Below, piece after piece: positions 42,210 to 57,836 of a stretch of 64,000 nt of DNA. Position 1 is the first letter of the stretch; each line of letters starts with the position of its first letter. The stretch covers positions 1 to 64,000 of the forward strand of contig JARGOF010000026.1 of assembly GCA_029212415.1 (NCBI GenBank), given 5' to 3'. Origin of the DNA: Rhizobiaceae bacterium (GTDB lineage Bacteria > Pseudomonadota > Alphaproteobacteria > Rhizobiales > Rhizobiaceae). Position numbers and translations under genes: made by a program. The notes under the pieces are model-generated. The model was not told the DNA's origin and did not search any database. It saw only the letters and a list, made by a program, of their open reading frames with translations.

Positions 42210-43669
42210 ACATCATGCAAATCAAGTTGATTGAGGCAGAAGGACGCGAGCGCGCCTATCGGTTGCGCATGCCGTTCCGCTTTGGCGTCAAAACCGCCAC
42301 CCATGGCCGCCAGGCGATCATGCGGGTGCGCATCAGACTGCAGGATGGACGCGAGGCTGAAGGCTATTCAGCTGAAGCGCTCGGCGCCAAATGGTTCGAC
42401 AAGGATCTGGCGCTGAGCGATGATGAAAACCATCACCAGTTGCGCAAATCTCTTGAACTGGCATCTGAAGCCTATCTGTCCAGTCCGGCGGCTGCGCCCT
42501 TTGCTCTGTTTGCGGACAATTACGACAACCATGTCGCTGCCTGCGGCAGACTGGCGCTCAACCCGCTGATTGCCAGTTACGGCCAATCGCTGGTCGACAG
42601 GGCCATTCTGGATGCGCTGTGCCGGGCACTGGATATCAGCTTCTATCAGGCGATGCGCAGCAATCTGGTCGGCCTGACGCCGCACCCGGTTGCACCGGAA
42701 CTCGATGGTTTCGATATGGCCTCGCTTTTTCACAATGCACAGCCTGCCCGTTCCATCGATGTGCGCCACACGGTGGGGCTTACCGACCCCATTCTTGTTT
42801 CTGATATTCCGGCAGATTTGCGGGTCACCGACGGCCTGCCTCAAGCGCTGGAGGAAGTGGTCACGACCTACGCGAATCGCTATTTCAAGATCAAGGTCGG
42901 CGGCAATGAGGCCGAGGACCTGGATCGGCTGACGCGCATTGCGTCGGTGCTTGACCGCAGCAAGGGCGCCTATCGCGCCACGCTGGACGGCAATGAACAA
43001 TATCCCGATGCAGCGGCCTTTGCCGACTTCTACGCGAAACTTGCAGAGGTGCCAGAACTTCAAAGGCTGTTGGCTTCGATCCTCTATGTGGAACAGCCGA
43101 TCAACCGCAAGGAAGCCCTGGCAAGACCGGTCAATGCAATCGCCCAAACGGTGCCGGTTATCATTGACGAGTCCGATGGCGCACTTTCGGCTTTTTCCCA
43201 GGCACGGGAATTGGGCTATACGGGCGTCTCGTCCAAGGCCTGCAAGGGCATTTACAAATCGATGATCAATTATGCCCGCTGTCAGGTCTGGAATGATGGT
43301 GGCGAAGGCACCTATTTCATGTCGGCGGAAGACCTGACCTGCGAACCGGGACTGGCCATCCAGCAGGACCTGGCGTTGATCAACCTGCTCGGGCTTACCC
43401 ATGTGGAGCGCAATGCCCATCATTTCATTGATGGATTTGGCGGGCGCCCTGACAGCGAGGCCCAGGCATTCCTCAGCGCCCATCCCGATCTTTATCACCG
43501 CCAGGACGGCGGCGTTCGGCTGCGACTGGAAGACGGGAAATTTGCAATAGGCTCACTTGATTGCAGCGGCTTTGGTACCGGGGTCTCACCGGATTTTGAC
43601 GCATTGGAACCCAAGCCGCCTGCTGCCTGGCCAAAGGCGATTGCAGGGGAGACTGCCGGCAATGATTGA
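42206..43669 (+). CDS. Enolase superfamily MLE-like enzyme, copy 2
   Basis: The 487-residue protein is longer than typical MR/MLE proteins (about 370-400). The catalytic set is intact: KIK at residues 228-230, metal ligands Asp261 (TLDGNE), Glu296 (YVEQPI) and Asp321/Glu322 (IIDESDG), and Lys344 (GVSSKACKG). An N-terminal capping domain precedes these and a long C-terminal region follows with EDLTCEPGLAIQQDLAL. The length plus DGNEQ suggest a distinct, little-known subfamily. Overlap of 4 bases with the ATPase and of 8 bases with the amidase place it in the same operon. Confidence 0.82.
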   Translation: MNIMQIKLIEAEGRERAYRLRMPFRFGVKTATHGRQAIMRVRIRLQDGREAEGYSAEALGAKWFDKDLALSDDENHHQLRKSLELASEAYLSSPAAAPFALFADNYDNHVAACGRLALNPLIASYGQSLVDRAILDALCRALDISFYQAMRSNLVGLTPHPVAPELDGFDMASLFHNAQPARSIDVRHTVGLTDPILVSDIPADLRVTDGLPQALEEVVTTYANRYFKIKVGGNEAEDLDRLTRIASVLDRSKGAYRATLDGNEQYPDAAAFADFYAKLAEVPELQRLLASILYVEQPINRKEALARPVNAIAQTVPVIIDESDGALSAFSQARELGYTGVSSKACKGIYKSMINYARCQVWNDGGEGTYFMSAEDLTCEPGLAIQQDLALINLLGLTHVERNAHHFIDGFGGRPDSEAQAFLSAHPDLYHRQDGGVRLRLEDGKFAIGSLDCSGFGTGVSPDFDALEPKPPAAWPKAIAGETAGND

Positions 43670-45077
43670 AGACTATGAAAGCCTCGACGCACTGGCGATT
43701 GCCGAACGCGTGCAGCGTGGCGCGGTTTCGCCCCTGGAGGTGCTCGAAACTTTCATTGCGCTTGCCGAGGCACGCAACCCCGCACTCAACGCCGTCGTGG
43801 CAACGCTTTATGACGAGGCACGGCAGGCGATTGACAAGGGCTTGGCAGACGGGCCGTTCAAAGGTGTGCCCTATCTGTTCAAGGAACTGGTGGTTTCGGT
43901 TCTGGGGACACCCAGCACCTCCGCCTCGCGTCTCTTTGCGCAGAACCAGCCGAGCGTCGAGAGTGCATTGGTCACCCGTTGCCGCAATGCCGGCATGATG
44001 ATCGTCGGCAAGACCAATTCGTCGGAACTGGGCCTGCAACCGGTGACGGAACCGCATCTGTTCGGCGCCACCCGCAATCCATGGAACCGCGACCATACGC
44101 CCGGCGGATCGAGCGGTGGTTCGGCGGCGGCGGTGGCTGCCGGCCTGTTGCCGATGAGCCACGCCACCGATGGCGGTGGATCCATCCGCATCCCTGCATC
44201 CTGCTGCGGGCTGTTCGGCATGAAACCGACCCGGGCGCGCATCACCGCCGGTCCGGAGGGCGGTGAAGGGCTTGCCGGACTTGCAAGCCAGCACGCCGTG
44301 ACACGGTCGGTGCGCGACAGCGCAGCCTTGCTCGATGCAACCGCCGGCCCCATGCCAGGTGATCCCTATTTTCCACCGCCTCCCGAACGCAGCTATCTTG
44401 AAGAAACCACACGCGATCCGGCCCGATTGCGCATTGCATTCTCCACGGCTGCACCCAATGGCGCCTTCGTCGATGCCGATTGCATCAAGGCCACTGAGGA
44501 CGCCGCAGCCCTGTGTGCCGATCTCGGACACTTTGTGGAAGAGGCCGAACCGGAATTTGATTTCGACGTGGCGCAGGCGGGTTTTCTGAACGTCTTTCAG
44601 GCCAATACAATGGCCAATATCGGTCGGGCTACCCAGGGCAGGCTACCAGCCGAAGGCCAGGTCGAACCCTTGACACGCGCCATTGCGGTGCGCGGTCTGG
44701 GCTTGTCTTCCGCCGATTATATCCACAGCCTCCAGGCGCTGCAGCGCGAGACGCGGCGCATTGCGGGTTTTTTCACCGGCTATGATGTCTGGCTGACACC
44801 GACACTTGCAACAACACCGCCGCGCCTCGGCCAGTTCGACACCAATGCAACCGATGTTGATCGGTGGCTTGCCAAACTGATGGCCTTCATCCCCTTCACA
44901 TTTCTGAGCAATATCACCGGTCAGCCGGCGATGTCCGTGCCGCTCGGCGTTTCACAAGAGGGGCTTCCCGTCGGCTGCCATTTTGCCGGTCGTTATGGTG
45001 AGGAAGGCCTGCTTTTCGCCCTGGCAGGACAGATCGAGCGGGCAAGACCGTGGATCGGTCGGCGCCCGCCCAATTAA
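43662..45077 (+). CDS. Amidase signature family hydrolase
   Basis: The 471-residue enzyme has the amidase signature: catalytic Lys74 (FKEL), the cis-serine in GGSSGGS (Ser150/151) and nucleophile Ser174 (DGGGSIRIP). It hydrolyses an amide (or related C-N bond) in the cytosol. The ATG at 43662 lies within the tail of the previous gene, overlapping by 8 bases. It ends the rightward cluster and converges on the ribose-type permease, 21 bases away, without a recognised hairpin. Combination with an aldolase and two enolase-type enzymes suggests an N-acylated or amide-containing substrate. Confidence 0.88.
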   Translation: MIEDYESLDALAIAERVQRGAVSPLEVLETFIALAEARNPALNAVVATLYDEARQAIDKGLADGPFKGVPYLFKELVVSVLGTPSTSASRLFAQNQPSVESALVTRCRNAGMMIVGKTNSSELGLQPVTEPHLFGATRNPWNRDHTPGGSSGGSAAAVAAGLLPMSHATDGGGSIRIPASCCGLFGMKPTRARITAGPEGGEGLAGLASQHAVTRSVRDSAALLDATAGPMPGDPYFPPPPERSYLEETTRDPARLRIAFSTAAPNGAFVDADCIKATEDAAALCADLGHFVEEAEPEFDFDVAQAGFLNVFQANTMANIGRATQGRLPAEGQVEPLTRAIAVRGLGLSSADYIHSLQALQRETRRIAGFFTGYDVWLTPTLATTPPRLGQFDTNATDVDRWLAKLMAFIPFTFLSNITGQPAMSVPLGVSQEGLPVGCHFAGRYGEEGLLFALAGQIERARPWIGRRPPN

Positions 45078-45098: not shown

Positions 45099-46100
45099 CT
45101 AGCCGATATCGGTGACTTCGCGGCCTCTGGTCAATTGCGAGATCGTCACGGCAAGGATCAAGGCGCCGCCGTTGAAGACATTGGTGACCCAGAGCGGGAT
45201 GCCCAGCATGGTCAGGCCGGTGATGCCTGTACCGAGGAAATAGACCGCGACGACTGCGCCCAGCGGATTGAAGCGGCCGGGCAGAATGGTGGTGGATCCG
45301 AGGAAGGCCGCAGCAAAGGCCGGCAGCAGATAATTCAGACCGGAGTAGGGATCGGCTGAACCCAAAATGCCTGCGTACATGACACCGCCGATCGAGGCGA
45401 CAACGGCAGAGGTGATCAGCGCGCCGACACGCATCTTGTCGACTGAAATACCATTGAGCCGCGCGACTTCGCGTCCACGCCCGACAAACAGCAGCCGGCG
45501 TCCCAGCGGGGTGAAATCGAAAATGTACCACATGATGATCATCGCAATCAGCGCATAATAGAAGACGTAGGGCACATTGAGAAAACGTCCGCCGACAACG
45601 GCCATGATCAGGGCGTTGTCGATGCCGCCAATGGTCGAGGAATTGGTCATCCACTGCACGATACCGGTCATCAGCGATGTGGAGCCGAGCGTGACCACCA
45701 GGGAGGGAATGCGGAAATAGACGATAAAAAGGGAATGGAACAGGCCGATGAAGACACCGGCTCCAATCGCAATGATGATGCAGGCAACGATGGGAACATC
45801 GTACCAGGCATTCAGGACGCCGATCAGGCAGGAGGACACGGTCAGCGTCGCACCGACCGAAAGGTCATAATCGCCGGCCGTCAAGGGCACGATGATCGCC
45901 AGCGCCAGCAAGGCAGCCGGCGCGTAAGAGGCAAACAGGATCGAGAAATTGCCCCAGTTGAAGAAGGAGACAGGCATGGCAATGCTGAAACCGGCAATCA
46001 ACAGCAGCCAAACCAGGATCAGCGCGAAACGCTCAAAGATCCTGAGATAATTGGTTTTGGGGCCCGTGGCGGTGGATGCCGCCTTGTCAGTTTCAGTCAT
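45099..46100 (-). CDS. Ribose-type ABC transporter permease
   Basis: The 333-residue inner-membrane permease has the RbsC-type fold with FSILFASYAPAALLALAIIVPLTAGDYDLSVGATL near the N-terminus (described by position residues 50-85) and FLGSTTILPGRFNPLG. Only one permease gene is present, so it should act as a homodimer. It begins 3 bases after the ATPase stop. Function: import of a small sugar-like or nucleoside-like compound for the HyuAB/LeuCD module, based on the shared regulatory site. Confidence 0.88.
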   Translation of the reverse strand: MTETDKAASTATGPKTNYLRIFERFALILVWLLLIAGFSIAMPVSFFNWGNFSILFASYAPAALLALAIIVPLTAGDYDLSVGATLTVSSCLIGVLNAWYDVPIVACIIIAIGAGVFIGLFHSLFIVYFRIPSLVVTLGSTSLMTGIVQWMTNSSTIGGIDNALIMAVVGGRFLNVPYVFYYALIAMIIMWYIFDFTPLGRRLLFVGRGREVARLNGISVDKMRVGALITSAVVASIGGVMYAGILGSADPYSGLNYLLPAFAAAFLGSTTILPGRFNPLGAVVAVYFLGTGITGLTMLGIPLWVTNVFNGGALILAVTISQLTRGREVTDIG

Positions 46101-46103
46101 GGA

Positions 46104-47741
46104 TCAACTCTGTGTTTTCTGTGAAGCCTGCGGATGAATGATATTCTCAACAGCTTCTACCGAGCCATAGCAGGCCTCTGTGATATTGTCCTTGCTGACG
46201 TCACCGCCAGTAATTTCCTCGACGATACGCCCGCGCGCAAAAACCAGGACCCGGTCACAGATCTCGGCCAATTGCTCGGCATCGGTGCTGGCGCAGACGA
46301 TGGACATGCCCTTGCTTGCAGCCAGTTTGAGCGCCTTGAAGATATTGTCGCGCGTTCCCACGTCAACGCCCTGCGTCGGCTCATCCAGCAAGAGCAGCAT
46401 GGGTTGGCGCTTCATCCACCGGGCGATCAGCACCTTTTGGGCATTGCCGCCTGACAGCGCACCCAGCGACAGCCCCGGATCGTTCGGACGGACTTCATAT
46501 TCCTGGCCCAGCCGGAAGGCTTCCTTCTTCATGGATCGATTGCTGAGGAACCCGTGAGAGAAGTATTTTTCAATGTCCGGCAGCAGCATGTTTTCAAAAA
46601 TGGAAATGCTGCCGACGCCGCTTTGCTCGGCGCGATCGCCGGGCAGCAGCGCAAAATTATTCTTGATGGCTTTTTTCGGCGTCATGGCGCTGATGTCCAT
46701 CGGCTCTGCTCCGGGCAGCGCAATGGAGCCGCCATCGGCACTTGTCGCACCAAAGACCAGATAGGGAATCTTGTCATATCCCGAACCAATCAGCCCGGTC
46801 ATACCCAGAATTTCGCCCTTGCCGATATCGATGTCGCACGGGGGAATGCCGTGACCTTGCAGACCCCGTATGGATGCAAATGTCGGCATTTTTTCCGTGA
46901 GCAGCGTTTGGCGATCCGCTGATCGCTCAAGCTTGCGCCCGATTATCATTTCCACCATCTTTTCATGGGTGGCGTCGCGCGTATCGATCTGGCCCGAAAC
47001 GCGACCATCGCGCAGCACCGTGACCCTGTCGGTGATCTGCATGACCTCTTCGATGTCATGAGAAATGAAGATCACGCTGGATCCGTGCGCCTTGATCCGG
47101 CGCACCAGATCAAACAGTTTCTCGACGCCTTCCTTGGGCAGAAAGGGTGTTGGTTCATCAAGCAGGACAAGGCCAGGTTTGCCGGTTATTTCGCTGCCTT
47201 CGCGGATTTCCTCAAAGGCCCGCACGATGGCAAGCAGCGCGCGATTGACGGCGCTCAGTTCATCAACGCGCCGCCAAGACTCGATATGCACGCCATAACG
47301 CTCAAGCGTTTCCTGCGCAGCCGCCTTTTCACGGCGCCAGTTGATCATGCCTTTGGCGGCCAGGGCAATCTGCGCCAGACGCAGGTTTTCCAGAACGGTA
47401 AGTGAGGGTACAAGACCAAGATTCTGATGCACGAAGCTCATACCCAAACGCCGGAAATCACTGGGTTTGAGCGGCAGGCTGACATCCTGCCCGTTGAATT
47501 GCATGCGGCCACCGGCATCGGGTGCATGAAAACCGGCCAGCACTTTGATCAGTGTGGATTTTCCCGAGCCATTGGTGCCCAGAAGGCCATGAACCTCGCC
47601 AGGCATCACATCGATTGAAACGCTGTCGAGTGCCCGGGTTGCCTGAAAGGATTTCGAGATATTCTCAAGTCGAAGCGTAGGCGGCGTCAAAGACGCCGCC
47701 TTGTTCTGTGTGTCCAAAACTTCCGTTTCAGAATTTTTCAC
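46104..47741 (-). CDS. Ribose-type ABC transporter tandem ATPase
   Basis: The 545-residue protein has two ABC domains; about 20 extra residues precede the first. Walker A is GTNGSGKST near residues 53-61, with a Walker B VLLDEPTPFL; the second domain has GLIGSGYDK in place of Walker A and LSGGNAQKVLIARW. This is typical for RbsA-like ATPases in which the second site is degenerate. The gene follows the binding-protein gene by 5 bases and precedes the permease by 3, so the transporter is one operon. Confidence 0.88.
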   Translation of the reverse strand: MKNSETEVLDTQNKAASLTPPTLRLENISKSFQATRALDSVSIDVMPGEVHGLLGTNGSGKSTLIKVLAGFHAPDAGGRMQFNGQDVSLPLKPSDFRRLGMSFVHQNLGLVPSLTVLENLRLAQIALAAKGMINWRREKAAAQETLERYGVHIESWRRVDELSAVNRALLAIVRAFEEIREGSEITGKPGLVLLDEPTPFLPKEGVEKLFDLVRRIKAHGSSVIFISHDIEEVMQITDRVTVLRDGRVSGQIDTRDATHEKMVEMIIGRKLERSADRQTLLTEKMPTFASIRGLQGHGIPPCDIDIGKGEILGMTGLIGSGYDKIPYLVFGATSADGGSIALPGAEPMDISAMTPKKAIKNNFALLPGDRAEQSGVGSISIFENMLLPDIEKYFSHGFLSNRSMKKEAFRLGQEYEVRPNDPGLSLGALSGGNAQKVLIARWMKRQPMLLLLDEPTQGVDVGTRDNIFKALKLAASKGMSIVCASTDAEQLAEICDRVLVFARGRIVEEITGGDVSKDNITEACYGSVEAVENIIHPQASQKTQS

Positions 47742-47746
47742 TGCGC

Positions 47747-48865
47747 TTATTCCATGCCCCAGAGTTTACGGAAGCCGGCGACATAGGCATCACCATAGCC
47801 CGTATCAAACTGAGCTGGCTTGCCGGCATCTGCTACATTGTCCTTGTCGAAAATGTAGAAAGGAACGTTGAGCTTGTCCGGTACAGGAAGACCACACAGG
47901 TCACGCATATGTCCGTCAACGGTGGCATAGGCGATCCAGTCGAGACTCTCACCGATGTTCATGTCGACAGATCCGTCATGAATGAAATCGAGCACAAAGG
48001 GCGTTCCGTTGAAGGTTGCAACCTTGACCTTGCCCAATGTGCCGGTCAGCCGAAGAGCCGGAACGACAAATTGTGACATGGAGTCATAGATCGGAATGAT
48101 CACATCGATTTCAGGGTTTGACTGCAGAACGGCCTGCACGGACTGCTGAATCTTTGTTCCCCATTCGGCAACGCCAACATTGATTTCGCGGACGATTTTG
48201 CAATCGGGGCAATTTTCAGCCAGTTCACTTTCAAAGCCGGCAACCAACGGGATGGTCGGTGGCACTTCGCGTGAAACGACGATGGCAATATTGCCTTTGC
48301 CATTGGTGTTGACGGTGACCCAATTGGCCAGAATCTTGCCGATTTCGTTGAAACCGATCGGCAGGCTGCTGGAAATCAAAGGATGTGGTTCGAAGGAGGG
48401 ATCATAGAAATGAGACGTCATGACCTTGACGCCGGCATCCGATGCCGCCTTGACCTGAGGGGCAACCGTATCGGGAGAAATGCCTGAGATCAGATCGATG
48501 ACATCGAACTTGCTGCGAATGGCAAAGTCAAAACCCTGCACCCACTGGCTCGGCTGACCCTGATTTTCCCATTCGACAACTTCGAGACCAATTTCATCGC
48601 CGACAACTTTCATGCGGTCAATGATGCCCTTGAGAAAGGGGTTGGCGCTGCTGTTGGGAATGGACAGCATTTTCTTGCCGGCGGCACAGGCCTTGATGTC
48701 AAAAGGCTCGCCCGGGGCAGTGAATACGGGCGATTCTGTATAGGTAGAGAGACGCTCCTTGGCGCGCGTCATTCCATCGTCGGCGCTCTGGGCACTGAGC
48801 GTTGGCGCGACCAGCGCCACCGCAAGTGCCGACGCCATGGTCGAAATTTTCCAGAAATTATTCAT
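47747..48865 (-). CDS. Periplasmic binding protein, ribose-type
   Basis: The 372-residue protein has a signal peptide (residues 1-26, ending LSAQSA) and a Peripla_BP_4-like body, beginning after an unusually long linker with KKMLSIPNSSANPFLKGIID near residues 65-84. Two pairs of cysteines (NCPDCK, and elsewhere) are visible, possibly forming disulfides. It is longer than RbsB (about 290). First gene of the importer operon, with a GAGGAG before the ATG at 48865. A TGAATACGCATTCA operator lies 62 bp upstream. Confidence 0.86.
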   Translation of the reverse strand: MNNFWKISTMASALAVALVAPTLSAQSADDGMTRAKERLSTYTESPVFTAPGEPFDIKACAAGKKMLSIPNSSANPFLKGIIDRMKVVGDEIGLEVVEWENQGQPSQWVQGFDFAIRSKFDVIDLISGISPDTVAPQVKAASDAGVKVMTSHFYDPSFEPHPLISSSLPIGFNEIGKILANWVTVNTNGKGNIAIVVSREVPPTIPLVAGFESELAENCPDCKIVREINVGVAEWGTKIQQSVQAVLQSNPEIDVIIPIYDSMSQFVVPALRLTGTLGKVKVATFNGTPFVLDFIHDGSVDMNIGESLDWIAYATVDGHMRDLCGLPVPDKLNVPFYIFDKDNVADAGKPAQFDTGYGDAYVAGFRKLWGME

Positions 48866-48926: not shown

Positions 48927-48940
48927 TGAATACGCATTCA
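48927..48940. promoter_or_regulatory. LacI-type operator, copy 1
   Basis: TGAATACGCATTCA, a 14-bp near-palindrome with a central CG as in LacI-family operators. It sits between the binding-protein gene (48865, minus) and the LacI gene (49021, plus). The identical 14 bases occur at 54036-54049. Confidence 0.75.
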
Positions 48941-49020: not shown

Positions 49021-50106
49021 ATGAAGCGAAAAACGACCCGCGTAACGTCCTACGATGTGGCAAAACTCGCCGGAGTTTCGCAGCCTACGGTCTCACGTGC
49101 CTTTACGCCCAATGCCAGCATAGCCAAGGATAAACGCGACCGCGTGCTTGCTGCGGCCAAGCAATTGCACTACCTGCCCAACTCGATCGCCGCCAGCCTG
49201 TCGAGCGCCCGCAGCAACATCGTGGCAGTGATAGTCGGGGACATGCACAATCCGTTTTATTCCGAAAGCCTGCAGGCTTTCATCAATCGCCTGCAGGCGA
49301 CAAACCGGCAGGTTCTGGCCTTTACGGTGGAGGATGGCCGTGACTGCGACGCCGTGCTGATGCAGGCCTTGCGCTACCATGTTGACGGTATTGTGGTGAC
49401 ATCGGCAAACCTGTCTTCCGACCTGATCAGCCTCAGCCGGGAGGTCGGCATTCCCATCGCCCTGTTCAATCGCAGCACCTCAGACCCGACCCTGACCTCG
49501 GTACGCTGTGACAGCGTGCAGGGAGGCGGCCTTCTGGCCGACGCAATGTTTGCAGCCGGTGCGCAGAGCTACCTGATCGTGCGTGGGGATCCGCAGGGCT
49601 CGACCAGCCGTTTGCGTGTCAAAGGCTTCCGCGATGCATTGGCTTCGTTCGGCATCGGTGACAGCGCAATCACCGAAATTGACGGGGGATCAAGCTATGC
49701 GGGCAGCTACAGGGCGATCAGCAATCATTTTGACAGCCCGGCACCACAGTTCCCCGATGCCATTTTTGCAGTCAATGACATCATGGCCATTGGCTGCATT
49801 GATGCGCTTCGTGCCAAATTCAATATTGCCATTCCCGGCGATATCATGCTTGCCGGCTTTGATGGAATCCGAGAAGGGCGCCTCGGCCCCTACCACCTGA
49901 CAACGGTTCGCCAACCGATTGAAGACATGGTCACCAAAACGCTGGATCTTCTGGGCCGTGACAATCAGGGTGAAAAATCCGCGACCCAGGTCAATTGCGT
50001 GCTGCCCGGCATATTCATACCGGGCAGAACCGTGCCGGGGTTGGTGGAAATAGCGCCGGACAAGGCGCTGGAAGCCGATATTGAAAGCATCTCCGGAAAA
50101 AACTAG
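49021..50106 (+). CDS. LacI-family transcriptional regulator
   Basis: The 361-residue repressor has the N-terminal LacI helix-turn-helix (TSYDVAKLAGVSQPTVSRAF, residues 9-28) and hinge, then a periplasmic-binding-protein-like effector domain beginning NIVAVIVGDMHNPFYSE. Such regulators sense sugars or similar small molecules. It is divergent from the ribose-type importer and 33 bases from the convergent hyuB-like gene. A perfect copy of the operator-like 14-mer lies upstream of it and again 5 kb away, marking the regulon. Effector unknown. Confidence 0.9.
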   Translation: MKRKTTRVTSYDVAKLAGVSQPTVSRAFTPNASIAKDKRDRVLAAAKQLHYLPNSIAASLSSARSNIVAVIVGDMHNPFYSESLQAFINRLQATNRQVLAFTVEDGRDCDAVLMQALRYHVDGIVVTSANLSSDLISLSREVGIPIALFNRSTSDPTLTSVRCDSVQGGGLLADAMFAAGAQSYLIVRGDPQGSTSRLRVKGFRDALASFGIGDSAITEIDGGSSYAGSYRAISNHFDSPAPQFPDAIFAVNDIMAIGCIDALRAKFNIAIPGDIMLAGFDGIREGRLGPYHLTTVRQPIEDMVTKTLDLLGRDNQGEKSATQVNCVLPGIFIPGRTVPGLVEIAPDKALEADIESISGKN

Positions 50107-50138: not shown

Positions 50139-51917
50139 CTATTCCGCTGCCTCATGAACGCCGGGAATGAATCCGAAGTCAAAGGGCTCGGGCTCGCCGC
50201 GTGTTTTTCGCATCTCGTCGCGAAGCGCCTCTGTCGCCGCCTCATCAACGACATTGTCTCGTCCGATGACAACGCCATAATCGCTTTTGGCCCGTTCATG
50301 CGACACCAGATCAATGCAGACATCCTTTCTGACGGCGGCAATCGGCCGATCCAGCGGATCGCCCCAGCCTCCGGATCCCGCCGTGATGAAAATCACCCGG
50401 TCACCGGGTTCCACAGTAAGATTGTCGAGCTTTGACTTGATGCGTTCGGGCTTGTCCGCACCGGCGCGATGCAGCCATTTGCTCGATGTACCGCCGTGCA
50501 GGCCACCATTGATGCCCCAGGGTGGAACCGTTTCGCGGTCATCATGGATGGAGATCGTGCCGGGCTCCAGAAGACGATAAATCTTCTCGATTCCCGCACC
50601 ACCGCGATGCAGGCCTGCGCCGCCGGCATCCTTGACCGGACGATAGCTTTCGACCAGCACCGGATAGTAATTTTCGATGTATTCAACCGGTGTTGCACTG
50701 AACAGAGGCCACCAGGCGTGGCCGTCAAAGCCATCCCCCAGCGGTCTGCCGGGCACACCGCCGAACAGCAGTTCCATCAACTGGAAATATTTGCCGTTCT
50801 TGTCGTGACCGGTAAAGATGAAATGCGGGCTGGTGCCATAGCCGGCAGCCATCGACAGATGCGGAGCCTTCTGGCCAAGCGCGCCGGCCTGACAATCGAA
50901 GAACCGTGTATGGGTGTTCAAGCGGTTTGACAGGGCCGCAGGGAACTTGGGATTCAACAGGCTGCCTTCCGGCAGAATGATCTCGAACAGATCATAAAAA
51001 CCCTCGTTGAACATGATCTTCGGATCGAAAGCCATGATCATGTAAACGCCAAAGAACAGTTTGCAGAGCCCTTCGTGAATGTGGAAGTTGATCGGCCCTT
51101 CCGCCTGCGGGTCCGTGCCGGTCCAGTCAATCACCGCAACATCACCGCGTCGGTAGATGGAAAGATGCATCTTGAACGGGCCGTTGCCCAGGCCGTCATC
51201 ATCGACATAATCGGTGAATGTGACGGGTTCAGACGAAATATATTTGTTGATCAGAATGCGCATGGCCTCACGGGTGCGATCCATCAGCATGTCGCAGGCC
51301 TCGACATAGACATCACGGCCGAAACGATCACAGATTTCATTGACACGCTTGACCGCCGTGCGGCAGCCGGCAATCAATGCCATCAGATCGGCACGGTTCA
51401 TGTCGGGCGTGCGCGAATTGTTGAGCATGATGTCGAGCACACCCTGATTGAGCTTGCCCTTTTCATAGATCTTGACCGGAGGAACGCGCAGCCCCTCCTC
51501 CCAGATCGTGCGTGCGTCTGCCGGCATGGAGCCCGGCACCTTGCCGCCAACATCGACCATATGGCCGAAAATCGAGCTGAAGCCGACATGCACATCTTCG
51601 TGAAAGATCGGCAGCATCACGCACCAGTCATTGTTGTGCGAGATGGACCCCTTACAGGCGTAGGGATCGTTCCAGACGAACACATCCCCTTCATTGATAT
51701 CGTCGCCATATTGATCGACGATGGCCGGAATATAGGAGCCGAACTGGCCAACAATCATCTGCCCCTGGGCATTACAGATCATCGGAAATTCGTCATGCTG
51801 CTCGCGGATCACCGGCGAGAGCGCGATGCGCACCACGACGCTGTCCATTTCAAAGCGGGCATTGAGAAGTGCATTCTCGATCAGGTCGAGTGTGATGGGA
51901 TCAACTGTCTTGGTCAT
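50139..51917 (-). CDS. Hydantoinase B/oxoprolinase-like subunit
   Basis: The 592-residue protein belongs to the HyuB/oxoprolinase-beta family (PF02538-like), which with HyuA opens five-membered cyclic imides or lactams using ATP. Typical segments are DPITLDLIENALLNARFEM at the start, FVWNDPYACKGSISHNNDW and HMVDVGGKVPG, and near the end the glycine-rich GGAGLHRGGAGIEK. The ATG at 51917 is used since GGGAGAATG lies upstream; a longer frame into the HyuA gene is ignored. It starts 4 bases after the HyuA stop. Substrate may be hydantoin, N-methylhydantoin, 5-oxoproline or another cyclic imide; the LeuCD neighbours argue against simple oxoproline. Confidence 0.87.
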   Translation of the reverse strand: MTKTVDPITLDLIENALLNARFEMDSVVVRIALSPVIREQHDEFPMICNAQGQMIVGQFGSYIPAIVDQYGDDINEGDVFVWNDPYACKGSISHNNDWCVMLPIFHEDVHVGFSSIFGHMVDVGGKVPGSMPADARTIWEEGLRVPPVKIYEKGKLNQGVLDIMLNNSRTPDMNRADLMALIAGCRTAVKRVNEICDRFGRDVYVEACDMLMDRTREAMRILINKYISSEPVTFTDYVDDDGLGNGPFKMHLSIYRRGDVAVIDWTGTDPQAEGPINFHIHEGLCKLFFGVYMIMAFDPKIMFNEGFYDLFEIILPEGSLLNPKFPAALSNRLNTHTRFFDCQAGALGQKAPHLSMAAGYGTSPHFIFTGHDKNGKYFQLMELLFGGVPGRPLGDGFDGHAWWPLFSATPVEYIENYYPVLVESYRPVKDAGGAGLHRGGAGIEKIYRLLEPGTISIHDDRETVPPWGINGGLHGGTSSKWLHRAGADKPERIKSKLDNLTVEPGDRVIFITAGSGGWGDPLDRPIAAVRKDVCIDLVSHERAKSDYGVVIGRDNVVDEAATEALRDEMRKTRGEPEPFDFGFIPGVHEAAE

Positions 51918-51921
51918 GATA

Positions 51922-53979
51922 TCATTCTCCCTTCGATGTCGGCCAGATGAGCAGATTGCCGAGATCATCGACATCGGCGTAATGGTCGGGCAGCAAGACG
52001 GTGGTGGTGTCATACTGCCTGATGATTGCCGGACCCTGGACGCGAGCACCGGGCGCAAGGCGGTCGCGATCCACATGCGGCGTGTCCTGCCAGGCCCCGT
52101 TGAAATAGGCCTTCTGGGTTTCCATCACGGCTTGTGCAACATCGGTTGTACCCGCTTCCGGCGGCGCTGTGATCACCGGTGGCGTGGCCCCGGTGGCCGT
52201 AACGCGCAAGGCCACAAGCTCGATTGGCAGATCGAAACGCACGCCGTACAGGCGCTCATGGGTGTCGTGGAAATCATCCAGCACACCGGCAAGTCCGGCG
52301 GCGCTTTCCACCAGAGTCTTCGGCACATTGATATTGACCTCGAACCCCTGCTGTTCATAACGCAGATCAAGACCGTAGGTGATGCCCCGATCGCTCTCGG
52401 CGACCTCCTGTTCATCAAGCCAGGCCCGCGCCTTTGCATTCAGCTCGGCAAAAACTTCCCAGACCTGTGTCTCGTCAATGCCGGATGTGCTGCGGATCAT
52501 GGTGCGCACGAATTCATTCTTGAATTCGGCTTCCAGGAAACCAAGAGCAGAGAGCACACCGGGATTGGGCGGCACGACGACGGGGTAACTGCCGAGCAGC
52601 GTTGCAATGGCATTGGCGTGCAATGGACCGGCGCCACCAAAGGCAACCATGCCGAACTCGCGCGGGTCGAGACCGCGCTGAACGGTAATCAGCCGCAAGG
52701 CACCCAGCATCACCTCATTGGCGATGTGCAATATGCCCTCGGCTGCACTTTCCGCCGACAATCCCATTTTTTCGCCAATGGCAGAAACAGCGGCACGGGC
52801 GCCCTCGACATCCAGCGACATGTCGCCGCCAAGAAGCTTGGAAGGAAGATAGCCCAGCACCACATTGGCATCACTGACCGTGGGTTCTGTTCCGCCCTTG
52901 CCATAGGCAACGGGTCCCGGCATCGCGCCGGCACTGCGTGGCCCAACGCGCAGGGAGGTTGTCAGTTCGGCAAGCTCGGCGATCGAACCACCGCCGGCCC
53001 CCACACTGCGCACATCCAGCGTCGGCACCTTGGCGGGAAAGGATCCCACTTCCGTCGAGCGCGAGATCATCGGTTCGCCGTCAAGGATCACCGAAACGTC
53101 TGTCGATGTTCCGCCCATATCAAAGGCCAGCAATTTGTGCAGGCCTGTGCGGCGGGCAATCATGGCCGTGGCGGTGACGCCGCCAGCCGGTCCCGACAGC
53201 ACCGTATGCACCGGTCGGTCAGCGGCAGCGGCGGCACTCATCAGCCCGCCGTCGGAGCGCACGATATGCAATTTGCTGGTGACGTTTTCTTCCTTCAACC
53301 GATCTTCGATCCGCGACAGATAACGCGTCATGATCGGGCGCACATAATCATTCATCACGGTTGTGATGGCGCGGTCATATTCGCGAAACTCGGGCAGGAT
53401 TTCCGAAGACAGGGAAACCTGAAGTTCGGGATGGCGGGCAAGCACGATATCGCGCAATTGCCGTTCATGGGCATCATTGGCATAGGAATGCATCAGCGAA
53501 ATGGTCAGCGCCTCAATGCCGGAGCCACACAGATCGTCAATCAATGCCGTGGCTTTTTCCACGTCCAGTTCGCGCACGACATTGCCGCGTGCATCCATGC
53601 GTTCGGGAATTCCGCGTGTGTCGGCCAGCGAGGCCAGCGGCTCGGGTTTCTCCATCACGATCCAGCCGAACAATGGGCCGGGTGTCCAGGATTTCGCCAG
53701 GTGCAATGTATACTCGAAACCCTGGGTGACCAGCAGGCCGACCCGCGAGCCCTTGCCTTCAAGCACTGCATTGGTTGCAACAGTCGTTCCATGCAACACA
53801 AGCGTAATGTCGGATGGGGCAATGCCCGCCTTCTCACAGATCAACCGGACGCCCGCTGCAACCCCTATGGATTGATCCTGGGGCGTTGAGGGCGTCTTGG
53901 CCCGATAGGTCTTCCCGGTCTCATCATCCTGCAAGAGCAAGTCGGTAAACGTACCACCTACATCAACACCTAGCCTCAT
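51922..53979 (-). CDS. Hydantoinase A/oxoprolinase-like subunit
   Basis: The 685-residue protein is the ATP-binding partner of HyuB. The actin-like nucleotide motif GVDVGGTFTD lies at residues 4-13, and a second phosphate motif LAFDMGGTSTD is near residue 300. Family length is usual (about 680). The ATG at 53979 follows GGAGACGATCAA, and upstream in-frame sequence lacks any conserved motif, so longer versions are rejected. Together with HyuB it should use ATP to hydrolyse a cyclic amide. It is divergent from the leuC-like gene, sharing a 177-base region with a LacI-type operator. Confidence 0.9.
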   Translation of the reverse strand: MRLGVDVGGTFTDLLLQDDETGKTYRAKTPSTPQDQSIGVAAGVRLICEKAGIAPSDITLVLHGTTVATNAVLEGKGSRVGLLVTQGFEYTLHLAKSWTPGPLFGWIVMEKPEPLASLADTRGIPERMDARGNVVRELDVEKATALIDDLCGSGIEALTISLMHSYANDAHERQLRDIVLARHPELQVSLSSEILPEFREYDRAITTVMNDYVRPIMTRYLSRIEDRLKEENVTSKLHIVRSDGGLMSAAAAADRPVHTVLSGPAGGVTATAMIARRTGLHKLLAFDMGGTSTDVSVILDGEPMISRSTEVGSFPAKVPTLDVRSVGAGGGSIAELAELTTSLRVGPRSAGAMPGPVAYGKGGTEPTVSDANVVLGYLPSKLLGGDMSLDVEGARAAVSAIGEKMGLSAESAAEGILHIANEVMLGALRLITVQRGLDPREFGMVAFGGAGPLHANAIATLLGSYPVVVPPNPGVLSALGFLEAEFKNEFVRTMIRSTSGIDETQVWEVFAELNAKARAWLDEQEVAESDRGITYGLDLRYEQQGFEVNINVPKTLVESAAGLAGVLDDFHDTHERLYGVRFDLPIELVALRVTATGATPPVITAPPEAGTTDVAQAVMETQKAYFNGAWQDTPHVDRDRLAPGARVQGPAIIRQYDTTTVLLPDHYADVDDLGNLLIWPTSKGE

Positions 53980-54034
53980 TTGATCGTCTCCATGCTGCCC
54001 TATTGCGCCCGAAGATCCTCCGGTGCGATATCTG

Positions 54035-54063
54035 TTGAATACGCATTCAGTAAATAGTAGCAT
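54035..54063 (+). promoter_or_regulatory. LacI-type operator, copy 2, overlapping a leuC-side promoter
   Basis: TGAATACGCATTCA at 54036-54049 repeats the operator near the LacI gene exactly. On the plus strand TTGAAT (54035-54040) and TAGCAT (54058-54063) form a 17-bp-spaced promoter whose -35 is inside the operator. The site should control both the leuC operon and the divergent hyuA-hyuB operon. Confidence 0.75.
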
Positions 54064-54156
54064 TGCTTCGACATCAAGAAAAAAAACTGGTTGATCGATG
54101 GCCGCAGGGCACTTTTGATCGTTCAAACCAGAGAAAGCAGCATCGGATACGCAAAC

Positions 54157-55569
54157 ATGGCAGGACGCACCCTCTATGGAAAAATCTGGGACGCGCACAT
54201 CGTACGCAGCTACGATGGTGGCGACGATCTCATTTATATTGACCGACATCTGGTTCAGGAAGTTTCAAGCCCGCAGGCCTTTGCCGCGCTTGATGAATAC
54301 GGCCGAATCGTGCGTCGCCCCGAGGCTCATCTTTCCGTCGCCGATCACGCGGTGCCGACAAAAGACCGCTCACAAGCCCTGAAAACCGGGCTTGCCGCAC
54401 GCCAGGTCGAACGATTGGTGGACAATTGTCGCCGATACGAAATTCCCTATATCCCCACCGATGACCCCCGTCACGGCATTGTCCATGTCATCGGCCCGGA
54501 GCTTGGATTTACCCAGCCGGGCACGACGCTGGTTTGCGGTGACAGCCACACCTGCACCCATGGGGCATTCGGATGTATCGCCTTTGGTATCGGGGCCAGT
54601 GAATGCGCCTGTGTCCTGGCCACCCAGACATTGCGCCAGCGCAAGCAGAAGACCATGCGCGTCAGCCTTGACGGAGCCCTGCCCGAGGGTGTCACGGTCA
54701 AGGACGTCATCATTGCACTGATCGCAAAGATTGGCACCGGCGGTGGTGTCGGCTACGCCATCGAATATGTCGGCTCTGCCGTCGAAGCCCTGTCGATGCA
54801 GGCCCGCATGACGCTGTGCAACATGACGATCGAGGCAGGCAGCCGCGTCGGACTGGTTGGCGTGGATGAAAAGACGATTGCCTTTCTCAAGGGCCGGCCA
54901 CTTTCACCAAAGGGCGCCGATTGGGACGCTGCTGTGGCGGCTTGGGCAAACCTTGCAAGCGACGAGGATGCGCAGTTCGACCATTGCGTCAGCCTGGATG
55001 TATCACAACTGGCGCCGCAGGTTTCCTGGGGCACGACCCCGGAGCAGTCTGTTGCAGTGACGGGTCATATTCCCGATCCGATGCAGGAAAGCGATCCTGA
55101 TCGTCGCTTCGGGCTGCAGAAAAGTCTTGACTATATGGCCCTGACCGCAGGGACCGCCATTCGCGACATAACAATAGACAAGGTCTTTATCGGCTCCTGC
55201 ACCAATGGCAGGATCGAGGATCTGCGCTCGGCGGCCTCGATCCTTGAGGGCCGCACGGTTGCTCCCGGAGTCTCGGCCATAGTGGTGCCCGGATCGGCGG
55301 CAACGCGTATCGCTGCCGAAGCCGAGGGGCTCGACACGATATTTCGCTCTGCCGGGTTTGAATGGCGCGAGGCCGGCTGCTCCATGTGTGTGGGGATGAA
55401 TGATGACCGGCTTGCAGAAGGCGAACGCTGCGCATCGACGTCCAATCGCAATTTTGAAGGCCGCCAGGGCATCGGCGGGCGGACCCATCTGATGAGTCCG
55501 CAGATGGCGGCGGCGGCGGCCATCACCGGCCGGCTGACCGATGTAAGGGAATTGCTATCATGCCAATGA
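54157..55569 (+). CDS. LeuC-like hydro-lyase large subunit
   Basis: The 470-residue protein is an aconitase-superfamily large subunit. The 4Fe-4S ligands are Cys348 (GSCTNGR), Cys408 and Cys411 (GCSMCVG); CGDSHTCTHG at residues 127-136 is another conserved segment. True leucine biosynthesis is unlikely because the gene is inside a hydantoinase/amidase/transporter module, with no leuB or leuA nearby. Paralogues act on citramalate, maleate, 2,3-dimethylmalate and homoaconitate. ATG at 54157 begins the conserved start MAGRTLYGKIWDAH. It overlaps the small subunit gene by 10 bases. Confidence 0.88.
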   Translation: MAGRTLYGKIWDAHIVRSYDGGDDLIYIDRHLVQEVSSPQAFAALDEYGRIVRRPEAHLSVADHAVPTKDRSQALKTGLAARQVERLVDNCRRYEIPYIPTDDPRHGIVHVIGPELGFTQPGTTLVCGDSHTCTHGAFGCIAFGIGASECACVLATQTLRQRKQKTMRVSLDGALPEGVTVKDVIIALIAKIGTGGGVGYAIEYVGSAVEALSMQARMTLCNMTIEAGSRVGLVGVDEKTIAFLKGRPLSPKGADWDAAVAAWANLASDEDAQFDHCVSLDVSQLAPQVSWGTTPEQSVAVTGHIPDPMQESDPDRRFGLQKSLDYMALTAGTAIRDITIDKVFIGSCTNGRIEDLRSAASILEGRTVAPGVSAIVVPGSAATRIAAEAEGLDTIFRSAGFEWREAGCSMCVGMNDDRLAEGERCASTSNRNFEGRQGIGGRTHLMSPQMAAAAAITGRLTDVRELLSCQ

Positions 55570-56198
55570 GAAAAATGTCCGAATTCACCAGTCTTGCAGC
55601 GCCATTGCCGGAAAACAACATCGATACGGATGTGATATTTCCCGCACGTTTCCTGCTGATCCTTGCAAAGGAAGGCGTTGGACAATATGCCTTCCACGAA
55701 CGCCGCAAGGGCGCCGGATCGGATTTTGTGCTCGACAGACTGCCCTATGACAAGGCCGAGATCCTGGTGACAGGTTCGAATTTCGGCACCGGGTCGAGCC
55801 GCGAGCAGGCGGTCTGGACCCTGGCAGATCTGGGCATCCGTTGCGTGATTGCGCGTAGTTTCGGTGAAATATTCTTTTCCAATTGCTACAAGAATGGTGT
55901 CCTGCCGATCGTCCTTGGCGAAGACGCAATGCTTGCGGTGGAAGCAGCGGCCAATGCGGCGGAACAGATCACCGTGGATCTGCCGAATGAATGTTTGCGG
56001 CTGGCCAACGGGACGCAAATCGCATTTACAATAGAGCCCTATCGCAAACAGGCCCTGATGGCCGGTCTGGACGAGGTCGGGATGATCCTGACGCAAGATC
56101 TGGCGGCCATCGAGGCATACGAATCCCGACGCAAGCTGAATACGCCCTGGGTGACAGCCGGATCGGAACAATTGGAATTACACAGCGGAAATGATTGA
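55560..56198 (+). CDS. LeuD-like hydro-lyase small subunit
   Basis: The 212-residue protein is the small-subunit partner, with NNIDTDVIFPARFLL at residues 19-33 and the swivelling-domain signature GSNFGTGSSREQAVW at 72-86. The usual GSSREHA of LeuD has Gln83 here in place of His, and the FGC has Thr; both changes are near the substrate pocket and hint at another substrate. It overlaps the large subunit gene and the hydrolase gene after it, so the three are translationally coupled. Confidence 0.88.
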   Translation: MPMRKMSEFTSLAAPLPENNIDTDVIFPARFLLILAKEGVGQYAFHERRKGAGSDFVLDRLPYDKAEILVTGSNFGTGSSREQAVWTLADLGIRCVIARSFGEIFFSNCYKNGVLPIVLGEDAMLAVEAAANAAEQITVDLPNECLRLANGTQIAFTIEPYRKQALMAGLDEVGMILTQDLAAIEAYESRRKLNTPWVTAGSEQLELHSGND

Positions 56199-56841
56199 GA
56201 TGACAGACAAGACAGACCTTATGGAAAATTATCGCAAGGCCTACGGCAACGGTATCGGCTTTGGTCAGCGCCCGGCACTGATCATGATCGACTTTGTTCG
56301 CGCCTATTTTGACCCCGAATGCGAACTTTACGCCGATGTTGACGATGCACTGGCCTCGGCGCTGCGCATTCGCGAGGCCGCACGGGCAAACGGCGTTCCG
56401 GTTATCTATACCAATGTCACCTATCATCCCGATGGTTCGGATGGCGGTCGGTTTTTTCAAAAGGCCAAACCGCTGCACAATTTCATCAGAGGCAATCCAA
56501 TGGGCAATTGGCCTGAGGGACTTGAGGTTGGCGATGATGAACTGGTGATCTCCAAACAATATCCCAGCGCCTTTTTCGGCACCTCCCTTGCCTCCACACT
56601 GACCACCTGGGGCATCGACACCCTGATCCATACGGGGTTGAGCACCAGCGGATGTGTGCGGGCCACCTGTGTTGACTGCTGCTCGCACGGCTTTATCCCG
56701 ATCATCGCCCGCGAGGGCGTCGGCGACCGTCACGAGGCACCTCACGAATCCAACCTTTTCGACATGAATGCCAAATATGGCGATGTGGTCGGCGAGCAGG
56801 AAATTCTGGATTATCTCCAGACAATGAAGCAGAAATCCTGA
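56191..56841 (+). CDS. Isochorismatase-fold amidohydrolase (N-carbamoylsarcosine amidase / maleamate amidase type)
   Basis: The 216-residue cytosolic hydrolase has the cysteine-hydrolase triad Asp34 (MIDFV), Lys122 (SKQYPS) and nucleophile Cys155 (STSGCVRAT). The subgroup includes N-carbamoylsarcosine amidohydrolase, which follows N-methylhydantoin opening, and maleamate amidohydrolase (NicF), which gives maleate. Both fit the module: HyuAB could create a carbamoyl or amide, and a LeuCD-like enzyme could hydrate maleate. It overlaps the LeuD-like stop by 8 bases. Confidence 0.87.
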   Translation: MIEMTDKTDLMENYRKAYGNGIGFGQRPALIMIDFVRAYFDPECELYADVDDALASALRIREAARANGVPVIYTNVTYHPDGSDGGRFFQKAKPLHNFIRGNPMGNWPEGLEVGDDELVISKQYPSAFFGTSLASTLTTWGIDTLIHTGLSTSGCVRATCVDCCSHGFIPIIAREGVGDRHEAPHESNLFDMNAKYGDVVGEQEILDYLQTMKQKS

Positions 56842-56864
56842 CAGATACGGAGAACGGGCAGACC

Positions 56865-57836
56865 ATGGCCAGAATTACATGTATCGGAACCGGCAATGTC
56901 GGACGTGCCTGGGCCGTGGTCTTTGCCCGCGCAGGCCATGCGGTTGCACTCTATGACGCGCAACCGGACCTGGCGCTCAATGTCGCCATGCCGCGTATCC
57001 GCCAGACCCTGAAAGAGCTTGCCGAGGCGATGCCGACGGGCGAAACTGCCGAGGAAGTCGCAAGCCGGATCCAGGTGCATACGACGATCGCTGACGCGGT
57101 TCGCAATGCCGATTATGTTCAGGAAAGCGTGCGTGAAGATGTTGCGGTCAAGCGCAGCGTCTTTGCCGAGATTGCCGATGCGGCCCCGTATCAATGTCTG
57201 CTCGCCTCATCAACCTCCGCATTGCCCGGCTCGGCTTTCCTGAACGCGATCGTCCATCCGGAACGGGCCTTTGTCGCCCATCCGGTCAACCCGCCCTCGC
57301 ATATCCCCTTGGTCGAATTGTGTGGCACCGGCGCAACGAGTGCACAGGCACTGGGCGCGGCGCAGAACCTTCTGAGCGCTGCCGGCATGGAGCCGATCAT
57401 CGTGCGCAAGGAAATTGACGGCTTCATCCTCAATCGCCTGCAATATACGATGGTTGCCGAGGCGATGCATCTGATTGGTGAAGGCTATTGCACGGCGGAA
57501 GATATCGACCGGGTGGTCACCAGCGGGCTTGCCCTGCGCTGGGCATCCATCGGCCCGTTCATGACGGCCCATCTCAACGCGACAGGGGGGTTTGCCGGTT
57601 TTGTCGAGCAATTGGGCCCGATGATGAAACGCATGGGCCAGGATGCAAAAACCGACTACGACTGGGGACCACAGCAGGTTGCGGAGATCCACGAATGGCT
57701 TGCCAGTCAATTGCCTGTAGACAATATAGCCGAGGCCCAGGCTTGGCGTGACCGGCGGATTCTCGCCACGCGCGCCATGCAAAATGCAGATGACGGTGTG
57801 GGCAGCGCCAAAAAAGCCGAGCCTGATGTATCCTGA
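56865..57836 (+). CDS. 3-Hydroxyacyl-CoA dehydrogenase family (lambda-crystallin-like) dehydrogenase
   Basis: The 323-residue protein has an N-terminal Rossmann fold (ITCIGTGNVGRAWAVVFARAGH, residues 4-25) and a C-terminal helical dimerisation domain (FILNRLQYTMVAEAM). The active-site HP in FVAHPVNPP and the Ser/Asn of the SSTSALP segment fit the family, of which L-gulonate dehydrogenase and hydroxyacyl-CoA dehydrogenases are members. Because no CoA ligase is nearby, oxidation of a free hydroxy acid is more likely. Last gene of the LacI-linked rightward operon, 23 bases after the hydrolase. Confidence 0.87.
   Translation: MARITCIGTGNVGRAWAVVFARAGHAVALYDAQPDLALNVAMPRIRQTLKELAEAMPTGETAEEVASRIQVHTTIADAVRNADYVQESVREDVAVKRSVFAEIADAAPYQCLLASSTSALPGSAFLNAIVHPERAFVAHPVNPPSHIPLVELCGTGATSAQALGAAQNLLSAAGMEPIIVRKEIDGFILNRLQYTMVAEAMHLIGEGYCTAEDIDRVVTSGLALRWASIGPFMTAHLNATGGFAGFVEQLGPMMKRMGQDAKTDYDWGPQQVAEIHEWLASQLPVDNIAEAQAWRDRRILATRAMQNADDGVGSAKKAEPDVS

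Follow-up and report, generated by a model that had tools for sequence, protein, structure and literature searches.

A candidate LacI-controlled regulon for the catabolism of a maleimide-type cyclic imide in a Rhizobiaceae bacterium

Cyclic imides are known to be transformed by an imidase and a half-amidase, with a metal amidohydrolase opening the ring, and the aerobic degradation of nicotinate (nic genes) includes a maleamate branch. The LeuCD-type maleate hydratase (e.g. HbzIJ) and the dimethylmaleate hydratase of nicotinate fermentation are known enzymes as well. Here, we describe a set of six genes, namely hyuA, hyuB, leuC- and leuD-like genes, an isochorismatase-fold amidase gene and a gene of the 3HCDH (3-hydroxyacyl-CoA dehydrogenase) family, which is adjoined by a LacI-family regulator gene and a three-gene ATP-binding cassette (ABC) importer. 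The set is located in a 64,000-nucleotide stretch of a Rhizobiaceae genome of 5.84 Mb (contig JARGOF010000026.1, positions 1 to 64,000; hereafter, the window). Each of the enzyme types is known; the arrangement of these known families is new, is conserved and is not leucine biosynthesis, and among the matches listed in our search of the open-licence literature, we found no description of this enzyme combination or pathway. We propose that these genes make up a catabolic regulon under LacI control, directed at a substituted maleimide-type cyclic imide, an interpretation of sequence comparisons to which we give slightly better than an even chance.

The proposed route shares with the known transformation of cyclic imides the succession of imide, half-amide and dicarboxylate, but the ring would be opened by the ATP-dependent HyuAB. 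With the maleamate branch of nicotinate degradation, it has in common the amidase subfamily (about 50% identity); unlike that branch, the window cluster lacks the ring genes, the half-amide would come from HyuAB, and LeuCD together with a lyase would stand in for the isomerase. The creatinine/N-methylhydantoin pathway likewise combines HyuAB with an isochorismatase-fold amidase but, to our knowledge, includes no LeuCD, lyase or hydroxyacid dehydrogenase. The maleate and dimethylmaleate hydratases are, as predicted for the window LeuCD, two-subunit aconitase-superfamily hydro-lyases for cis-dicarboxylates, whereas the context of the window LeuCD, with HyuAB and the amidase, differs from theirs. 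An archaeal enzyme encoded by leuC is described as having maleate hydratase activity (PMC8307300).

A sequence-only reading of the window had named the six genes, in two divergent operons beside the importer, and all of them were found in place (Table 1). hyuA and hyuB run leftward on the minus strand from position 53979, separated by 4 bp, and the four-gene run on the plus strand starts at 54157, with overlaps of 10 bp and 8 bp followed by a 23-bp gap; such overlaps and short gaps within the run of each strand fit two operons. Five of the six families were assigned from Pfam, well above the cut-offs (Hydantoinase_A, Hydantoinase_B, Aconitase, Aconitase_C and Isochorismatase), and the 3HCDH family of the sixth gene was assigned from NCBIfam and solved-chain matches, the best NCBIfam model scoring 345.8 bits against a cut-off of 347. 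The operator common to both promoters was also recovered: the 14-base TGAATACGCATTCA has exactly two exact matches in the genome, in the importer/LacI gap and in the hyuA/leuC gap. With up to two mismatches, there were 40 matches (19 on one strand and 21 on the other, with the two palindromic sites counted on each) compared to 3 for the reversed control, so that weaker sites of this kind exist elsewhere in the genome. We then scanned for palindromes the divergent gaps of the window and of those compared loci (designated by L-numbers) that carry a LacI gene of at least 44% identity; 18 loci qualify, 15 of them with a scannable gap. By eye, both gaps carry operator-type sites in the case of the window and of 7 of the 15 loci (L034, L035, L036, L038, L051, L060 and L101), whereas only one gap does so in 5 others (L042, L052, L061, L066 and L088). 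The importer, LacI, HyuAB, LeuCD, amidase and dehydrogenase genes probably form one co-regulated set.

On sequence grounds, the window LeuCD is not a leucine enzyme and belongs to a LeuD subfamily apart from the housekeeping LeuD, because separate leuC and leuD genes exist in the genome and the window LeuD falls in a supported separate branch. The LeuC subunit carries Cys348, Cys408 and Cys411 in SCTN and GCSMC motifs and the LeuD subunit carries GSSRE, as is characteristic of aconitase-superfamily hydro-lyases. Both subunits exceed the NCBIfam cut-offs (leuC, 672.2 versus 560.25 bits; leuD, 164.3 versus 116.25 bits), which indicates that these models do not separate this subfamily. Elsewhere in the genome, there are two Aconitase-domain genes (on contigs C44 and C67) and two Aconitase_C genes (C67 and C3), which read as a leuC on C44, an aconitase on C67 and a leuD on C3. 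Hence the window pair, which had been predicted to be a non-leucine enzyme, is not the sole isopropylmalate isomerase candidate of this genome. The C3 LeuD has PKDYLKTIK...GCGSSREH where the window LeuD has PARFLLILA...GTGSSREQ, the recognition loops thus reading YLKT and FLLI, respectively. The sequence-only reading had taken the Thr and Gln of this region as signs of a non-isopropylmalate substrate; the motif is indeed present, and the Gln stands, being the residue after GSSRE in 32 of 41 LeuD rows from amidase loci, the window included (Ser/Ala in 5, His in 3, Asn in 1), as opposed to His in the C3 LeuD. The Cys-to-Thr change, in contrast, was ruled out as a sign of a new substrate because the solved LeuD chain 3h5h, which reads GTGSSREH, has Thr at the same position. 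Gln after GSSRE and the PARFLL loop are better markers than Thr; in Arabidopsis, a small-subunit loop of this kind is reported to contribute to substrate preference, with GSSRE conserved (PMC7308503). Among 30 further LeuD loci from 28 genomes, 5 are of the Gln type (one of them the own gene of L034) and 25 of the His type, 17 further matches having been left out of this count for want of a locus. In a tree of 72 LeuD rows, 34 amidase-locus rows and the 5 further Gln-type rows form one branch (support 99/94), and 23 His-type rows form a separate one (98/88). With the combination of PARFLL and GSSREQ as a sequence signature, most members of this LeuD subfamily can be told apart from the leucine enzyme.

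The solved chains matched by the amidase are, in order, 26st (150.9 bits), 4l07, 1nba, 4l08 and 3ot4, of which we take 3ot4, 4l07 and 4l08 to be maleamate amidases. The PH-xxx-L(F/Y)D stretch of the window amidase is shared with 26st, 4l07, 4l08 and 3ot4, is missing from 1nba (an N-carbamoylsarcosine amidohydrolase) and occurs in 81 of the 82 amidase rows of the loci and the window. Because 26st also has this stretch, it does not decide between maleamate and N-carbamoylsarcosine activity; the idea that a PHE-type motif proves specificity for maleamate was likewise dropped, given that 26st nearly has it and that the residue after PH varies. For the context of amidase homologs, we opened five annotated plasmid regions. 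In three of these (L121, L163 and L164), homologs of about 50% identity, annotated as N-carbamoylsarcosine amidohydrolase, lie in nicotinate-type clusters together with a molybdopterin protein, an FAD monooxygenase, an alpha/beta hydrolase and an Asp/Glu racemase, and one record also includes an annotated 2,5-dihydroxypyridine dioxygenase. By this context, the three proteins look like maleamate amidases, which makes the N-carbamoylsarcosine amidohydrolase label doubtful for the subfamily. The other two regions are a Novosphingobium LeuD locus and a Palleronia locus that contains amidases, a rutA-annotated gene, the amidase homolog and an importer. This importer matches that of the window at 44-53% identity (53% for the permease), and the importer family of the window may travel with imide-like substrates. 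When aligned with homologs of 44-50% identity encoded in other amidase loci, the window binding protein shares many invariant residues with them. In five Blastomonas/Sphingomonas loci (L089, L092, L094, L096 and L103, one of the five scored), a hemN-type gene directly abuts the amidase; it is the only tetrapyrrole-type match above cut-off within the minority of neighbour proteins that were family-searched, and may be unrelated to the pathway.

The neighbourhood was looked for in other genomes, and the same gene order recurs in many loci. Among the best 80 of 508 amidase relatives in genome contigs, with partner genes scored by tblastn, LeuC or LeuD is present in 40 loci, a lyase of the ICL/PEP-mutase superfamily in 44, HyuA/B (at least 40% identity) in 32, CaiB-/HMG-CoA-lyase-type genes in 21, the dehydrogenase in 16 and a PuuE-like protein in 10. 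The lyase occurs in 33 of the 40 loci with LeuC or LeuD, and within 1.5 kb of the amidase, the lyase is found in 35 and LeuD in 37 of the 80 loci. In a second, partly overlapping sample of ten amidase matches of 59-84% identity from 397 genomes of the order (L005-L014, with L006 the same place as L035), the short loci include LeuC or LeuD in 7 cases and the lyase in 6.

The lyase lies between the amidase and the dehydrogenase in 14 of the 16 dehydrogenase loci, the exceptions, apart from the window, being L034 and L043. All three of these genomes possess a copy elsewhere, which is 76% (window genome, C81:45064-45921), 76% (L034) and 67% (L043) identical to the L035 copy taken as the reference; the in-operon lyases of the other 13 loci are 66-79% identical to it. 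The copy of the window genome clusters with its in-operon counterparts in L035-L038 (support 100/99) and retains KKCGH, the motif that holds the catalytic Cys in this superfamily; it thus appears to be the in-operon gene at a new location, and it was invisible in the window because it lies elsewhere in the genome. The L035 lyase, with its ICL/PEP-mutase-superfamily domain and KKCGH, resembles 2-methylisocitrate lyase, 2,3-dimethylmalate lyase and the petal death protein, the solved chains of which it matches at 157-180 bits, but differs from the 2-methylisocitrate lyase group in falling below the curated PrpB cut-off (262.5 versus 354.4 bits) and in sitting with imide-type genes.

The best solved matches of the dehydrogenase (193.2 and 178.4 bits; alignment of 15 rows) are lambda-crystallins, which are free hydroxyacid dehydrogenases; an L-gulonate 3-dehydrogenase or other 3-hydroxyacid dehydrogenase was considered as a candidate assignment. 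A search for its subtype at E 1e-90 in 289 genomes of the class returned only the window genome itself; two genomes of the order (L005 and L006) do carry the dehydrogenase beside other cluster genes. In 8 of the 16 dehydrogenase loci (L036, L037, L038, L052, L054, L060, L066 and L088), HisD/SDR or iron-type alcohol dehydrogenase genes, the latter identified by eye, are part of the cluster.

From the genes, their order, the operator, the separate leucine enzymes and the orthology of the lyase, we infer the reactions and the substrate as follows. The ABC importer would take up a substituted cyclic imide, the ring of which HyuAB would open with ATP to give a substituted maleamate; the isochorismatase-fold enzyme would then strip ammonia to leave a substituted cis-dicarboxylate (alkylmaleate), and the 4Fe-4S LeuCD-like enzyme would hydrate it to a substituted malate. 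The methylisocitrate/dimethylmalate-lyase-type enzyme would cleave this alkylmalate to a 2-oxoacid, either pyruvate or glyoxylate, and the carboxylic acid formed along with it would be oxidised by the 3HCDH-family enzyme. LeuCD-type enzymes act on neighbouring cis carboxylates, the amidase would yield one carboxylate from an amide and HyuAB would yield the other from the ring; taking these demands in order, a maleimide-type imide is the only substrate class known to us that satisfies all three. The final oxidation would imply a hydroxyl on the ring substituent, and the position of the dehydrogenase after the lyase, along with the additional dehydrogenase genes in half of the dehydrogenase loci, suggests a hydroxylated ring side chain. 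As regards the scheme of the sequence-only reading, family, phylogeny, regulation and gene order support import, ring opening, deamidation and hydration; the C-C lyase was missing from it, and the dehydrogenase more likely uses what the lyase releases than the hydrated acid. Of the imide, hydantoin or lactam that it had considered as substrates, a maleimide-type imide fits the amidase context and the hydro-lyase chemistry better than a hydantoin.

The gene content of related loci varies. In L087, the lyase, LeuD and LeuC genes are divergent from HyuA, HyuB and the amidase, followed by a Transp_cyt_pur permease; in 6 LeuCD loci, a PuuE-like protein is present and HyuAB is absent; and in sphingomonads, CaiB-/HMG-CoA-lyase-type genes lie near HyuAB and the amidase. 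The PuuE-like protein in the former loci and the CaiB-/HMG-CoA-lyase-type genes in the latter both seem to fit the proposed pathway. The sphingomonad genes are reminiscent of the (R)-citramalate CoA-transferase/citramalyl-CoA lyase reaction pair named in PMC8307300 and might accomplish the split of an alkylmalate in another way, although such a module is not seen beside the window cluster. Ten sphingomonad loci (L063, L065, L071, L081, L086, L089, L092, L094, L096 and L103) have HyuAB and HMG-CoA-lyase-type genes near the amidase, 8 of the ten with a CaiB-type gene too, and have no LeuCD at the locus; a GntR gene and a TonB receptor occur in several of them.

The families of HyuAB and the amidase allow other assignments. 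The ring might be that of a lactam or a hydroxylated pyrrolinone, with HyuAB as a lactamase of the oxoprolinase/caprolactamase type and the remaining enzymes acting on a related dicarboxylate. The caprolactamase models do match HyuA and HyuB (492 and 246 bits, both below the curated cut-off of 1000), and HyuA matches 5-oxoprolinase at 359.7 bits. We nevertheless consider this explanation unlikely: an opened lactam is an amino acid, with no amide left for the isochorismatase-fold enzyme, the gene of which is so often close to that of LeuD. Rather unlikely, too, is a creatinine/N-methylhydantoin-type pathway, in which HyuAB would open a hydantoin, the amidase would act on an N-carbamoyl amino acid, and LeuCD and the dehydrogenase would belong to a side branch. 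N-methylhydantoinase is the best solved match of HyuA (475.5 bits) and the amidase has, as its closest solved chain, one named for N-carbamoylsarcosine, but 1nba lacks the PH-xxx-L(F/Y)D stretch that is nearly universal among the amidase rows (though 26st has it), the products would be no substrates for a LeuCD-type hydratase, and the lyase accompanies LeuCD in most loci.

Acetone/acetophenone-type carboxylases belong to the same superfamily as HyuAB, and HyuA scores as high as 296 bits with NCBIfam carboxylase models, so that the cluster might instead degrade a ketone. Both HyuAB subunits are present, however, HyuA is nearer to hydrolases than to carboxylases (475.5 bits for the hydantoinase versus at most 291.3 for solved carboxylases), and an amidase sits in the operon, which makes this very unlikely. 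That LeuCD is a redundant leucine-pathway enzyme in an accidental neighbourhood is in keeping with the NCBIfam scores of both subunits, but we regard it as extremely unlikely in the light of the other leuC and leuD genes, the distinct branch and loop of LeuD, the repetition of the gene order in many loci and the operator common to the promoters.

Several observations weigh against a maleimide-type regulon as proposed. The solved chain closest to the amidase, 26st, bears the name N-carbamoylsarcosine amidohydrolase. In the LeuD tree, 7 of the 41 amidase-locus rows are outside the main branch, and 3 other rows also fall elsewhere. In 12 of 27 genomes that have the amidase locus without LeuCD, the single LeuD match is of the His type, which implies that LeuCD is not always needed, although the assemblies may be incomplete. 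Neither a partner gene nor an importer or LacI was found in 14 of the 80 amidase loci, 7 of these with more than 20 kb of DNA. No operator-like site was found in 3 of the 15 scanned loci (L053, L054 and L090), and three further LacI loci (L044, L050 and L079) gave no gap for the scan. Near the C81:45064 lyase, there is no match to TGAATACGCATTCA with up to one mismatch, the sole C81 site (two mismatches) being at 141853; judged by these sites, the lyase of the window genome is outside the visible regulon. Finally, sugars are often sensed by LacI regulators, and the binding protein has a generic sugar-binding fold according to alignments and to a fold search on a predicted model (mean pLDDT, the predicted local distance difference test score, 78.9); the attempt to derive the ligand from its sequence or model was dropped since these yield only that fold.

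With regard to the natural substrate, chemical reasoning suggests, as a tentative and rather doubtful candidate, a tetrapyrrole-derived maleimide such as methylethylmaleimide, hematinic acid or methyl-(1-hydroxyethyl)maleimide, which are what is left of chlorophyll and heme as single rings. For these compounds, the lyase would yield pyruvate along with butyrate, glutarate or 3-hydroxybutyrate, the last of which the dehydrogenase would use as its substrate. The sugar-type importer and the side-chain dehydrogenases present in relatives would agree just as well with a C-glycosyl maleimide. Hematinic acid and alkylmaleimides from chlorophyll or heme are reported in leaves, in sediments or upon oxidation (PMC7318184, PMC12860425, PMC10343206); in the leaves studied in PMC7318184, hematinic acid was found, whereas maleimides could not be detected.

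Table 1. Positions, strands and basis of assignment of features in the window
Feature	Position	Strand	Basis
Amidase, probably outside core	43659..45077	+	Sparse occurrence among relatives
ABC importer permease (BPD_transp_2)	45099..46100	-	Pfam
ABC importer ATPase	46104..47741	-	Pfam
Substrate-binding protein (Peripla_BP_4)	47747..48865	-	Pfam
Predicted LacI-type operator TGAATACGCATTCA, importer/LacI promoters	48927..48940	.	Exact genome match
LacI-family regulator	49021..50106	+	Pfam/NCBIfam
HyuB (Hydantoinase_B)	50139..51917	-	Pfam, 487.6 bits
HyuA, putative ATP-dependent ring-opening subunit	51922..53979	-	Pfam, solved-chain matches
Predicted LacI-type operator TGAATACGCATTCA, between hyuA and leuC	54036..54049	.	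Exact genome match
LeuC-like large subunit, 4Fe-4S hydro-lyase	54157..55569	+	Aconitase domain, 556 bits
LeuD-like small subunit, non-leucine subfamily	55560..56198	+	Motifs PARFLL and GSSREQ, tree branch
Isochorismatase-fold amidase, maleamate-amidase-like	56191..56841	+	Pfam; homologs in nicotinate-type clusters
3HCDH-family hydroxyacid dehydrogenase, lambda-crystallin-like	56865..57836	+	Solved-chain matches

The additional amidase gene next to the importer was rejected as a member of the pathway: at E 1e-60, a 99% identical copy is found in the nearest relative, copies of 37-45% identity in 4 more genomes and none in 6 of 11. Downstream of the cluster, the open reading frames at 57882-59618 and 61030-62157 encode, by eye, a sulfatase-type membrane protein and a nucleotidyltransferase-type protein, respectively. 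The window genome also contains a second, related catabolic cluster (L118, C81:15000-34999) with a TctC-like receptor, two FAD monooxygenase-type proteins, two EutA/arylmalonate-decarboxylase-type proteins, a 53% lyase paralog, a PuuE-like protein and a lactonase-like protein and, by eye, SDRs, an aldehyde dehydrogenase and GntRs. Much of this set lies with LeuCD, amidase, CaiB, ABC and HyuA genes in L039-L041.

Taken together, these results give a concrete, testable function to gene sets of many Alphaproteobacteria, the parts of which score as proteins of the hydantoinase, leucine-pathway and N-carbamoylsarcosine-amidase types. Should the substrate indeed be a tetrapyrrole-derived maleimide, these would be genes for the last step of chlorophyll and heme breakdown, of which we found no description in the literature searched.

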